Program-made: the position numbers and the translations under genes
The notes under the pieces: model-generated
What the model was told of the DNA's origin: nothing
The model's database searches: none
What the model saw: the letters and a program-made list of their open reading frames with translations, nothing else
Assembly (NCBI GenBank): GCA_022844125.1
Contig: JALHMI010000012.1
Span: 1 to 64,000 of the forward strand
Source: Pirellulales bacterium
GTDB taxonomy: Bacteria; Planctomycetota; Planctomycetia; Pirellulales; PALSA-1355
DNA length: 64,000 nt
Reading direction: 5' to 3'
In this document: piece after piece, positions 1,287-16,805 of the stretch
How the letters are laid out: the number at the start of each line of letters is the position of its first letter
How positions within the stretch are numbered: the first letter of the stretch is position 1

Positions 1287-2291
1287 TTACGCCGCTTCCG
1301 TCGCCAGCCGGTCGCGCACTTGGCTGGCGATCTCGAACGACCGCCGCCGCGCCACATGATCGTAAAAGTGCCCCGTGAGCATTAGCTCGTCGGGCTTCAT
1401 CGTGCTGACGAACGCCTTCAGCGCCAGTTCCACAGTCCGCGCGTCGCCGACGAACGAGTACATCAGGGCGTGATCGATGCCCGCCTTCTCCAGCGGCGAA
1501 ACATACGCATTAATGTTGTCAATCGGTGGCGGCACCTGTCCCGCCATCCCGCGCCGCAGGTTGGCAAACGCCTGCTGCACGCTTGTGAACTGTCGTCGCG
1601 CTTCGGCATTGGTATCTGCCGCGAACACATTCACCCCCAGCATGACGTACGGCTGCTCAAGCTGCCGAGAGGGCTCGAACCTGCTCCGATAGATGTCCAC
1701 CGCCTGCAGCATCGCGTCGGGCGCAAAGTGCGATGCGAACGCAAACGGCAGCCCCAGCATCGCCGCAAGCTGCGCGCTGAACAGACTCGAACCCAACAGC
1801 CAGATCGGCACTCGCTGTCCTTCGCCCGGCACCGCGCGAATCCGCTGTCCCGGCTCGGCTGGCTCAAAGTACTTTCGCAGTTCCAGCACGTCGCGCGGAA
1901 ACTGCTCGGCCGTCTCCTCCGCATCGCGGCGCAGGGCGCGCGCCGTCGCCTGGTCGGTGCCCGGCGCGCGACCAAGTCCCAGATCGATCCGATCCGGGAA
2001 CAGTGCCGCCAGCGTGCCAAATTGCTCGGCAATCACCAGTGGCGAATGATTCGGCAGCATGATGCCGCCCGAGCCGACGCGGATGGTTCGCGTGCCGCCG
2101 GCGATGTGCGCGATCACCACGCTGGTGGCCGCTGAGGCGATGCCCGGCATGTTGTGATGCTCGGCCAGCCAATAGCGCTGGTAACCCCAGCGCTCGGCGT
2201 GCTGTGCCAGATCGAGCGAGTTGGCGAGCGCCACCGAGGCGGTGGAATCCTGCGCGATCGGCGCCAGATCGAGAATCGAAAACGGGATCAT
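1287..2291 (-). CDS. LLM class flavin-dependent oxidoreductase (luciferase-like)
   Basis: [36 protein letters not shown] motifs. Confidence 0.9.
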
Positions 2292-2364
2292 GTTTAATCC
2301 GTGTGGTACGTCCCTGAGCCCCAGCGAAGGGCGCGGTCTAATTGTAGGGTCTCGGGGGCAGCTC

Positions 2365-3393
2365 CTATTTCGAATGATACGTCTTCTCGTGACCATTGGC
2401 CGGAATGCTCACCGTGTACGTGTCACCGCTCGGATCGACCGACAATTTGATGAAGTTTGCCTGACACTCCTTCGTCGGGTTGGCAAGGTATTCGTCCGGT
2501 GCATTCGGCGAGCCATCCTCGCGCAGATTGCGATGCACCTGGTAGATCGCCTCGACCGAGGGCTGCGCCTTCAACGTCGCAAACGCGCCAGGATCGCAAC
2601 CCTTCGTCGCCCCGTTGTTGAAGACAGCGACACGCGGCTCGAGCTCGCGAATCACCAGCGGGTGATTGCTCGCGTCCATCCCGTGATGACTGGCCTGGTA
2701 TACGTCGACCTTACCCACCCGATTCACGGGACACACGAGCTTCGCCTCCAGGTTCCAGGTCAGGTCCCCCGCGTCGAAGAAATCGAACTCACCGAGCGAG
2801 ACCAACGTAACCACACTGTTGGCATTGTCGGTACCGTCGAAGGCCTTGGGCGGAACGTCCGCGCAGCCAGCCGTCGGCATCGTGCCTGCGGGCGCGTCAA
2901 TGAACTGTTGCCGTGTGCCGAGGCACTTCACCGTCAGCTTAACGCTGCCATCGTGCTGTTTGAGGGTAATGACATCGCCTGGCGAGATGACCGACCGCTT
3001 GCCGACTTTTGCTTCGAGATACGGCTTGTCCGGCCGATCGACGATCCCTGCGAAAAGACCGTTGTCGTGCAGATGCCCGATCGGCAGCACCTTGGCCAGT
3101 GTGGCCACGCCACCGAAATGGTCCGTGTGATAGTGGGTAATGATGACGTGGTCGAGCTGTCGCAGCCCAGCCTGCTGGGTCGCCACCTTGACGATCCGAT
3201 CCGGGTCACGGTGTCCCGGGTTGCCGGTGTCGATCAGCACGGCCTCGCCCGCCGGGGTGACAATCAGTGTCGCGGCTCCGCCTTCAACGTCGATCCAGTA
3301 GATATCGAGCCGGCCATCGGCCTGACCGGCAGTTGCGATCGAGGTGAGTCCCCAGCTGCACACCAGTGCTAGTACGTAACGTGAGCGAAGCAT
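2365..3393 (-). CDS. secreted MBL-fold metallo-hydrolase (ComEC/Rec2-like)
   Basis: signal peptide; HYHTDHFGG metal-binding motif. Confidence 0.85.
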
Positions 3394-12816: not shown

Positions 12817-12942
12817 TCTCGCCGGGCGCGAAGTTAAGCCACCTGCAATTGACGCTTCCTCCCCGTGGCGATACTCTCCCCGCCCCGTTTTGTTCCGTGG
12901 CCGAGCCCGCTTCCCTTTGGCCGAAAGTTGGAGGATGAGTTG

Positions 12943-15900
12943 ATGCGATTTGCGTCTGCATGCCTGGTTTCGCTCGTCGTAGCTTATACCTGCTTCGGTC
13001 AAAGCGGCGAACCCGCGCCGGCCGTTCCCAAGACAGCCTGCCTACGGTCGGCCGGACCTCAATCGGCCTGTTCCAAATCCGCCTGTTCCAAGGCGGCGGC
13101 TTGTCCGACGGCATCCGCCTGTCCCACAGCGAGCGCCTGTCCGCCGGCTTCGCATTGCCCGTCGAGTTCGGTTACTGCGTGTGCCGAGGCCACGGCCTGC
13201 ACGAAAGCGGGCGCGTGTTCCACGAAGACCGTCTGTAAGCCGAGTCGTGCAGAGTCTCTCAGCATCAGTGAATGGATGGACCTCGGGTCAACGTCGCAGA
13301 CGGAGCCCGGTGCCTCGACTTGTGAGTCAAACACGGCCTGTGCGAATGACACTGGCTGCGAGAGCATCGCCGACTGTGCAGCCAGCCGAATCGCCGCCCG
13401 GGCCGCGCTCGCCCAGAAGTTGTCCGCCTGCCAAACTCGAGCCAAGACCGACGCGATCGCGCGGCATCCGGAGCTGCTTGGCAACAGCGTGAGCGTTGCC
13501 ACCCCAGCTTGTGCTGCAAGCGCCGAAGCGTGTGCCGCGAAACAGTGCACTACGAAATCATCTGCGACCGCAAGCTGCGAAACCGGGGCCTGCGCCGCGA
13601 AGACTTGTGAGACAGGAGCCTGCTCGACCAAAGCCTGCCCCACGACCACGCTCGCCACTGCCGCGTGTGCTACTGCCGCCTGTGAATCCAGCGATTGCTG
13701 CCAGTCGAAGAATCGCCCGACAGAGAACACCGCCGTCGCCTCCAACGACTCCGTCACGCCCGGCATGCGCAAATGCTTTGAACTGAACTCGCGCGAAGCG
13801 ACGATGGTCACCAGCGCCGAGCGACTCGATCACCTACAGAAGGCCGCCGAGCACCTGGCCGCCGCCGGTTGCGAAAAAGAGGACGCCTGCGTCACCGCCT
13901 GGGCCACCGAAGTCAAACAGGACCTCGCGGCCCATATGCGCGAAATGTCCGAGGTGCTTAAGGAAGCCGCCGGCGACTTAGAAGAGGAGCTCAAAGCCGC
14001 GGGCACCAACGAGACCGCTGCCACCGCATGCCAATCTGCTGCGAGCGACTGCGAGAGCACAACATCGCCTGAACCCGCCTGCGACAAGACCGCCACCTGC
14101 CCGAGTGCCCACGCGACCTCGTTAGCTGTTGCTTCGGATTTTCGTGATCTGACACCGCTGTCGATGGTCCAGGTCCAAGTCTTGGAGGTCAATCTGAGCA
14201 GCATGCGCCGGCTTGGTTTGGACTTTCCCGGGTGCGCCTCGTCTCAGTGTGAACCGGGTACGGCCAGCGTTTGTATCGCTCGGCCGGAAGTCATCCATAG
14301 GACGATGATGACTCTACTCGACAAAGCAGCTGCGCGAATTGTTGGTCTGCCTCAGGTAAGTTTTCAAAAGCTCGACTGGTCAAAGCCCCACCACTTTGAG
14401 CTTCGTCACTCGGAGACGGGCTCGCACCTGGAAGTCACAACGACGAATCTCGACGGCGGCCGAACACAAGTTGCGATCCATCCCTGCCCGGGTGACGCTC
14501 CGGCGGACGAAACTGCTGCCCGCGCTCGTGCGATCTACGAGGTCGATGCCGAATTCGAGATCGAACCAGGTAAAGTGGCCATTGTCGGCGGCCACGTTGA
14601 TACCCGCGTTCGCGTAGAAAAACGCGGAAGTGCGACCGCGGTCACGGTGCATACCCGAGAAGAGCAAGTCCAAACGCTCTTCATCGTAACTCGCATTGCG
14701 GGCCCGCCGTCGAAAGTCACCCCGGTCGGCCATACCGAACCGAGCAAGACCAGCAGCGGCGCAGTCTGCCCGACGGCCTGCGACAAGGCGGTTCTCAAAA
14801 CGACTGCCAAGAAGTCTTGCGAAACGTCCACCTGCCAGAGCGCTGCAACCTGTCCGACGGCCATCTGCCCAACGGCAAGCTGCCCGACAGCCGCAACCAA
14901 CTGTGACTCGGCTCACACGCCGGCCTGCCGTGCGGCCACCGGCGTCGCAGCCTCGACGTGTCCGCTGACAAGCGACGCTCAGTTGCTCACGGCCTGCGAA
15001 GCCGCTAAGGGCTGTGCCGCGAAGAGCGCTGCGGCTATCGCCTGCGAGAAGAAGTCGTGTGACGCTCAGGTCGCCGCCCGCTGTGCCAAGGCTGGCGGCT
15101 GCCAGAAGACCGTCGCGTGCGACGAGTCCAGCGCCTGTCAAACGGCCGTCGCCTGCGACAAAGTTTCGATCTGCCCTCCGACCGCGTTCCTCGCCGAAGC
15201 AATTGCCACCGACGCCGCCGCCGAGTGCTGCGAGCGCAGCAAGTGTGCGAAGCAAGGCGTCTGCTGCAAGCAGGGCGAGTGTTGCAATCAAGATGCGTGC
15301 CCCGCCATGGCCAGCACCGCCACCGCGACCGACGAGCCGTGCGCCACCGAAGCCTGCGCCGACGCGCCGTGTGGCGTCGCGACGAGTAACGCCGGCTGCA
15401 TCGGCGTCATCGCCTGCGATACCGGCATCCAGACTGCTGCTGTTCCGGTGAGTGTTGCGGCCCCCGTCGCCACGGGCTCGTACATCGAGATGCACCTCTC
15501 GCACCTCGCCAAAGCCGCCGAGCACCTGACGCACGCCGGCCTCGCCGAAGAAGCCGCCAGCGTGAGCGTTTTGGCCAACAAGCTGCGCCAGGAACTGATC
15601 GCCGCGAAGCAAGCACAGATCGCCAGCCTTCAAGCCGAGATCGCGGCCCTCCAAGCGGACTGCGATGCGGTGTGCCGTGCTCCCGCGATCGACTCGGCCA
15701 TGGCAGTGCCCGACTGCCCGCCGGCTGCCTGTGCAGAACCGGAGTGCAGCTCGCCGATTGCCTTGCCTCCGGTGCCCGTGGCCGCGCCCGTGCTTCCTGC
15801 ACCTCCGTTTGAAACCACTCAAGCGCACGACGCCAAAGCGCACAAGCAGATCCTGCTCAAGGTTAAAGTTGTCGAAGTCTCCATGAGCCGCCTGCACAAA

Positions 15901-16452
15901 CTGGGTTTCGGCCTGGCCGCCATTCAGCCCGGCGCATCTGTGCCTGGTGACGGCTTGGCTGGCCTGCTCGAAGCTCTGCAGCGCGAGAACGCCGTCAAGG
16001 TGCTCGCCGAGCCGAGTGTGGTGCTGTCGAACGGACGTCCCGCCTCTTATCACGTCGGCGGCAGCGTCTCGCTTCCCAAGCCGGGCGGCAAACCTGGCGA
16101 ATGCACCATGCACGAGATCGGCACGCGACTTGACGCCGTGGCAGTGATACTTGACGACCACCGTGTGCGGCTCGACATTCGTCCGCGAGTCGCCGAGCTG
16201 CAGACGTTAGCCGGCCATGGCCCCAGTATTTGCGTGCGTGAAGTCGATACCGGTTTCGATACCGAGCTCGGCACGACCGTCGTCCTGGGCGGACTGCTCC
16301 AGGACCGCTTCCTGACCGAAAAAGACCCCAAAACACTGGAAGATCGTCAGGTACACGACCAGCGCCAGCTCTTCTTCCTGGTCACGCCCTGCGCGATGGG
16401 CGACGACTCGGCGGTCCAGCCCGCCAGTCATGCCGAGCCGATCGCCCGATAA
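12943..16452 (+). CDS. secreted cysteine-rich repetitive protein with two secretin-like domains
   Basis: GGAGG upstream of ATG; signal peptide MRFASACLVSLVVAYTCFGQ; ACxxxxxCPTA-type repeats; VQVQVLEVNLSSMRRLGLDF and LKVKVVEVSMSRLHKLGFGL; C-terminal VKVLAEPSVVLSNGRPASYHVGG ... TVVLGGLLQDR. Confidence 0.85.
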   Translation: MRFASACLVSLVVAYTCFGQSGEPAPAVPKTACLRSAGPQSACSKSACSKAAACPTASACPTASACPPASHCPSSSVTACAEATACTKAGACSTKTVCKPSRAESLSISEWMDLGSTSQTEPGASTCESNTACANDTGCESIADCAASRIAARAALAQKLSACQTRAKTDAIARHPELLGNSVSVATPACAASAEACAAKQCTTKSSATASCETGACAAKTCETGACSTKACPTTTLATAACATAACESSDCCQSKNRPTENTAVASNDSVTPGMRKCFELNSREATMVTSAERLDHLQKAAEHLAAAGCEKEDACVTAWATEVKQDLAAHMREMSEVLKEAAGDLEEELKAAGTNETAATACQSAASDCESTTSPEPACDKTATCPSAHATSLAVASDFRDLTPLSMVQVQVLEVNLSSMRRLGLDFPGCASSQCEPGTASVCIARPEVIHRTMMTLLDKAAARIVGLPQVSFQKLDWSKPHHFELRHSETGSHLEVTTTNLDGGRTQVAIHPCPGDAPADETAARARAIYEVDAEFEIEPGKVAIVGGHVDTRVRVEKRGSATAVTVHTREEQVQTLFIVTRIAGPPSKVTPVGHTEPSKTSSGAVCPTACDKAVLKTTAKKSCETSTCQSAATCPTAICPTASCPTAATNCDSAHTPACRAATGVAASTCPLTSDAQLLTACEAAKGCAAKSAAAIACEKKSCDAQVAARCAKAGGCQKTVACDESSACQTAVACDKVSICPPTAFLAEAIATDAAAECCERSKCAKQGVCCKQGECCNQDACPAMASTATATDEPCATEACADAPCGVATSNAGCIGVIACDTGIQTAAVPVSVAAPVATGSYIEMHLSHLAKAAEHLTHAGLAEEAASVSVLANKLRQELIAAKQAQIASLQAEIAALQADCDAVCRAPAIDSAMAVPDCPPAACAEPECSSPIALPPVPVAAPVLPAPPFETTQAHDAKAHKQILLKVKVVEVSMSRLHKLGFGLAAIQPGASVPGDGLAGLLEALQRENAVKVLAEPSVVLSNGRPASYHVGGSVSLPKPGGKPGECTMHEIGTRLDAVAVILDDHRVRLDIRPRVAELQTLAGHGPSICVREVDTGFDTELGTTVVLGGLLQDRFLTEKDPKTLEDRQVHDQRQLFFLVTPCAMGDDSAVQPASHAEPIAR

Positions 16453-16490: not shown

Positions 16491-16805
16491 ATGAGCGACC
16501 GACCTGATTGGCTTCCCGAGCCAGAAAAACCGCCGAGCCGGCCGGTTGGAGAACGACTTCGACTGGGAGCGGCGAACGTTCTTTCACTGTTTGTTTTCGC
16601 TTCGGGTCTGGTCTGCCTGATGGTCGCAATGACCCAACTCGGTCAACTGGCAAGAGGCGGAAACAAATTGGCGCCGCGAATGGTATCGGCGCTCACGCTT
16701 TTCGGTGGGCTGTGTCTGGTCGTGGCTTATCTTTGGCGCTGGTGCTTGCGCTATGCACGAATCGGTTTGGCTAAGGACCACGCCACAGACGACCGTCGGC
16801 ACTAA
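16491..16805 (+). CDS. small two-TM hypothetical protein
   Basis: 104-aa ORF with two hydrophobic segments. Confidence 0.55.
   Translation: MSDRPDWLPEPEKPPSRPVGERLRLGAANVLSLFVFASGLVCLMVAMTQLGQLARGGNKLAPRMVSALTLFGGLCLVVAYLWRWCLRYARIGLAKDHATDDRRH

Follow-up and report, generated by a model that had tools for sequence, protein, structure and literature searches.

Secretins are gated outer-membrane channels, and those of the RcpA/CpaC type, i.e. the Tad secretins, combine a secretin C-domain (PF00263) with a PF13629 N-domain. The lip of secretins has been described as a major determinant of their insertion into the membrane (PMC7545093), and it is conserved in RcpA (PMC10499894). With respect to the planctomycete envelope, the YTV-domain proteins (PF07639) are Cys-rich proteins recovered from planctomycete wall preparations (PMC8567305). 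Since planctomycetes possess peptidoglycan (PMC4432640), the older view of a purely proteinaceous wall is superseded. Additionally, crateriform outer-membrane structures of planctomycetes have been described, although they are still called enigmatic (PMC5394234).

The window (the whole stretch of 64,000 nucleotides analysed, from a Pirellulales bacterium whose genome is termed G000) encodes a 1169-aa protein that shares a secretin C-domain with the RcpA/CpaC-type Tad secretins. Unlike these, it has no N-domain, lip or Tad operon, its secretin domain is duplicated, and it carries Cys-repeat and helical regions. It resembles the YTV-domain wall proteins in being a putatively secreted, Cys-rich planctomycete protein; however, no Pfam match to the YTV repeats (PF07639) was obtained in the 1169-aa protein, which rules out that identity. 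The locus looks like a case in which part of a secretion pore has been reused as a Cys-rich envelope building block.

Architecture and internal duplication

The frame of the gene (Table 1) displays a codon-position GC content of 0.63/0.58/0.72, in agreement with a coding function, and its ATG is located 8 nt downstream of a GGAGG motif. The encoded parts are arranged in the order signal-like start, Cys region 1, helical module, degenerate secretin domain, Cys region 2, helical module, Cys/Pro linker and secretin domain. The signal peptide reported in the first-pass annotation of this DNA is visible, on reading of the sequence, as a hydrophobic, signal-peptide-like start, while the approximately 80 Cys residues counted there by hand amount to exactly 82. 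Steps of 5 or 6 residues make up 41 of the 81 Cys–Cys intervals, Ala precedes 33 of the 82 Cys residues, and some CC pairs occur, other pairs with a spacing closer than 5–6 residues being almost absent. At 38 nt past the end of the gene, a hydrophobic 104-aa ORF (window 16491-16805, + strand), which has no Pfam match, is possibly co-transcribed.

Table 1. Positions of the gene and its parts in the window
Feature	Position	Strand	Basis
GGAGG Shine-Dalgarno-like site	12930..12934	+	sequence
Whole gene, 1169 aa, 82 Cys	12943..16452	+	frame open to stop codon; codon-position GC
Signal-peptide-like N-terminus (MRFASACLVSLVVAYTCFGQ)	12943..13002	+	read from sequence
Cys-repeat region 1, aa 33-253, Cys each 5-6 residues	13039..13701	+	Cys spacing count
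Helical module 1, aa 290-355, AAEHLAAAG type	13810..14007	+	half-vs-half comparison, relatives
Secretin C-domain copy 1, degenerate, aa 400-585; without GRPASYxVGG stretch before Gate 1 and without membrane-lip segment	14140..14697	+	homology, model, loop comparison
Cys-repeat region 2, aa 609-825	14767..15417	+	Cys spacing count
Helical module 2, aa 846-906, coiled-coil-like tail	15478..15660	+	half-vs-half comparison, relatives
Secretin C-domain copy 2, aa 969-1150; membrane-lip segment absent; Pfam match 15973-16308	15847..16392	+	Pfam, model, loop comparison

A tandem duplication of a unit composed of a Cys-repeat, a helical and a secretin-like part had been proposed, and this is borne out by both blastp and shuffling scores. 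With the Cys regions left out, the two halves are 26% identical over 335 aa (blastp, E 8e-17). Compared separately, the secretin parts gave a Smith-Waterman score of 127 (1000 shuffles: 32+/-5, maximum 59) and the helical parts a score of 105 (1000 shuffles: 36+/-6, maximum 65), so that the homology of the halves clearly exceeds chance for each of these parts. Any likeness between Cys regions may be compositional, because these regions are of low complexity. A recent expansion of the Cys regions by repeats at the DNA level was rejected, as merely short arrays of 2-3 copies are present. A scan of four genomes with the Cys-spacing pattern yielded matches that were no commoner than those of a reversed-pattern control, some of them leading to real Cys-rich genes.

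Secretin identity of the two copies and the segments they lack

A secretin-derived domain had been suggested for both halves, and both assignments stand, albeit on different grounds. Searched against PF00263, a check that the first-pass annotation had recommended, copy 2 scored 57.6 bits (cut-off 27.5), the match covering profile positions 1-126 of 169 only, while copy 1, searched alone, gave no Pfam match. The structural model of copy 2 has a pLDDT of 88, all 40 of the 40 PDB matches at E<=0.001 in the fold search are secretins, and the top match of copy 2 among PDB sequences is RcpA of the Tad type (8odn); copy 2 is thus predicted with high confidence to adopt the secretin C-domain fold. For copy 1 (pLDDT 79), the nearest PDB folds are likewise secretins, at weak to borderline significance (best E 1e-3), and the alignment behind this model itself contains secretins. 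For both reasons copy 1 is identified mainly through its homology to copy 2, of which it is a decayed relative.

In all 16 Pirellulales Tad secretins compared, the loop between the last two strands is 32 residues long, and in 15 of these a PxLxDLPYxGAxF motif was found in it by regular expression, the sixteenth being a near-miss. We take this motif to be the amphipathic membrane-insertion lip (AHL) of secretins, an assignment not mapped on coordinates. In the short secretin domains of the window protein and its relatives (described below), the same loop spans 7-48 residues and the motif occurs in none of 17, both window copies counted. In four of the 17 (G002, G020, G036 and G046), a loop with 2-5 Cys residues takes its place. 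Furthermore, no Pfam match above cut-off other than Secretin was obtained for the 1169-aa protein in a search that would include the periplasmic N-domains (N0/N1/N3, STN or T2SS-T3SS_pil_N). The GRPASYxVGG stretch leading into Gate 1 is gone from copy 1, while copy 2 retains the VGG segment and a short gate-1-like loop. Judged by its sequence, the protein is a variant derived from secretins and is not filed as a secretin itself, because two defining features, the lip segment and the N-domains, are missing.

The 'pore' of the first-pass annotation is not supported by these comparisons, and the missing lip and N-domains rule it out as the best explanation. In such a pore, the short secretin domains would multimerise into a reduced barrel that the Cys regions lock in the envelope, for which the fold (that of the secretin barrel domain) and the gate-proximal elements kept in copy 2 may be cited. 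Beyond the absence of the lip and N-domains from both copies and of the stretch into Gate 1 from copy 1, this reading has against it that secretion genes are not nearby and that the host already possesses a full Tad secretin; we consider it improbable. The orphan location noted previously was confirmed, in that the named neighbours at 7.9-21.3 kb encode a xylose-isomerase-like protein, a beta-lactamase, a lactonase, an S9 peptidase and an acyl-CoA dehydrogenase, with no secretion genes among them.

The Tad cluster of the host, with its own full secretin RcpA carrying the PF13629 N-domain, is situated on another contig (C18). Its presence, together with the fact that the window domain is closest to RcpA/CpaC-type secretins, raises the possibility of an accessory or regulator whose small domains co-assemble with, cap or titrate RcpA subunits. 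However, no Tad genes lie alongside in the loci read, the domain has diverged from the RcpA of the host (44% identical in the 133 residues that match best) and the Cys regions would be left unexplained, which makes such a role quite unlikely. A plasmid origin was also rejected, as tblastn against plasmids returned distant secretins only.

Relatives in Pirellulales and the ancestry of the locus

Across 58 Pirellulales genomes, the strongest secretin matches are mostly Tad secretins, and the remainder include short proteins in which nothing but a secretin C-domain follows the signal-like start. With two larger searches added, 15 such relatives were gathered from 14 genomes (carriers include G002, G004, G006, G015, G017, G021, G026 and G056), a number that represents a collection and not a census. 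They constitute a group of short orphan 'mini-secretins' previously undescribed in the literature searched; the failure to find any description of mini-secretins or orphan secretins in planctomycetes in the open-access literature is in itself weak evidence. Like the window protein, they have a stand-alone secretin C-domain behind a signal-like start and lack the lip segment; unlike it, they are single-copy and mostly poor in Cys. Three relatives, from three genomes of another family, carry the helical module together with an N-terminus rich in Cys (18, 26 and 44 residues), while three further ones combine the module with few Cys residues. In one genome, two adjacent mini-secretin frames (L047:1313-2338 and 2283-3266, + strand; G021:C100) represent a second local duplication of the domain.

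The syntenic place in Planctomycetota bacterium LB_PLM_3 (G002), which belongs to the same family as the window host, is occupied by a 255-aa mini-secretin with 8 Cys residues, adjoining an S9 peptidase 73% identical to that of the window. It consists of a single short secretin domain without Cys repeats, duplication or helix, and it clusters with both window copies at 95/96 support in a tree whose deeper branches are weak and several of whose rows are long. In another genome (G001), no such gene is present at the same locus. A simple mini-secretin is probably ancestral at this locus, the duplication and the Cys repeats having been gained later or lost in G002, and both look lineage-specific because the positional homologue carries neither. 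The first-pass annotation had regarded homologues lacking the Cys repeats and the duplication as counting against it, and the G002 gene is such a homologue, so that this objection applies in part. With its 8 Cys residues and no repeats, it also counts against regarding crosslinking as clearly ancestral.

The simplicity of the G002 gene, the lack of such a gene at the G001 locus, the long tree branches and the decay of copy 1 would all be expected if a secretin domain had decayed after release from secretion duty while low-complexity Cys repeats expanded neutrally. Such drift is nonetheless unlikely in our view, given that the 1169-aa frame is open and biased by codon position and that parallel proteins with Cys-rich, helical and mini-secretin parts occur in a second family.

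A candidate envelope scaffold and its shared cassette

The reading we prefer, to which we assign an even chance, is that of a non-pore envelope scaffold or adapter, crosslinked by disulfides, that arose from a mini-secretin through Cys and helical segments and duplication. According to this proposal, a short stand-alone mini-secretin would have gained or kept such segments and then undergone internal duplication. The resulting protein would be exported and retained in the cell envelope, where the helical modules would oligomerise and the Cys-repeat regions, once oxidised, would form disulfides with one another and with other Cys-rich envelope proteins. The two secretin C-domains would no longer constitute a gated membrane-inserted pore and would instead act as a beta-rich module for assembly or interaction. 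Against this, mini-secretins may still be capable of ring formation. We count in favour of this scaffold the fold of copy 2, the lip motif being absent from all 17 domains, the three Cys-rich, helix-bearing mini-secretins of the other family, and three further observations from the genomes (a Poly_export protein in G002, VKOR and other ultra-Cys-rich proteins) given below.

VKOR is encoded in both G000 and G002, a co-occurrence that rests on four genomes and is only permissive for a disulfide-crosslinked wall protein. The window genome additionally encodes several YTV proteins, separate from the window protein, and two more ultra-Cys-rich secreted proteins with 61 and 41 Cys residues in CCAPEPSCC type repeats (L303:2633-3505, - strand, G000:C8; L304:2642-3196, - strand, G000:C20; G002 counterparts L311 and L312), one of which has a sub-threshold match to high-sulfur keratin and nothing else. 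These genes make the crosslinked scaffold of the first-pass annotation plausible, and its secretin-derived nature is retained, the pore being dropped. Its appeal to cystine-rich planctomycete walls holds insofar as such proteins are known (the YTV proteins), of which the window protein is not one. If the Cys regions instead served in metal binding or redox buffering, the secretin domain would be a passive carrier. The 82 Cys residues and the CC pairs could be read in this way; however, the 5-6 spacing with hardly any closer pairs, the likely export to an oxidising compartment and the presence of VKOR favour disulfides, and we regard this option as very unlikely.

The helical module is also shared by numerous other proteins, either secreted or of the M56-peptidase type. 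In G002, a 410-aa frame (L112:493-1722, + strand; G002:C12:178040-179170) combines a Poly_export domain with 40 Cys residues and the same helical module; this protein, from the same bacterial family, resembles the window protein in its similar-style Cys-rich region and homologous helical module and differs in bearing PF02563 (polysaccharide export) in place of a secretin domain. On a broader and speculative level, with a rather low probability, Pirellulales may repeatedly have recruited outer-membrane export domains that form rings (the secretin C-domain and Poly_export) as envelope parts without a pore function, through loss of the membrane-inserting segment and addition of Cys-rich and helical cassettes, and such proteins could belong to the crateriform structures or the cystine-rich wall. 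If true, part of a secretion machine would have been reused for structure, with the channel-wall fold kept and the membrane-inserting segment and N-domains lost. In three cases, the Cys-bearing loop at the lip position coincides with Cys-rich N-termini. These proteins would then be candidates, besides YTV proteins, for what underlies the cystine-rich planctomycete envelope, and for the material of the crateriform structures.

Further domain combinations were observed among M56 BlaR1-type membrane peptidases, whose C-terminal additions are a secretin-like part, Poly_export domains or an AAxHLxxAGL helical module. The additions were Pfam-checked for L004 (G000:C3, about 48-52 kb), L141 (G001:C9) and L117, and identified by eye for L119, L120, L122, L127 and L133. 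The C-terminal secretin-like part of the G000 peptidase scored 25.8 bits alone (below cut-off) and 28.6 in the genome search, while M56 peptidases in G001 bear Poly_export domains. Lastly, two 395-aa Poly_export proteins with identical scores (G000:C2:454306-454845 and G000:C20:47309-47848) reflect either a recent duplication or a repeat in the assembly.
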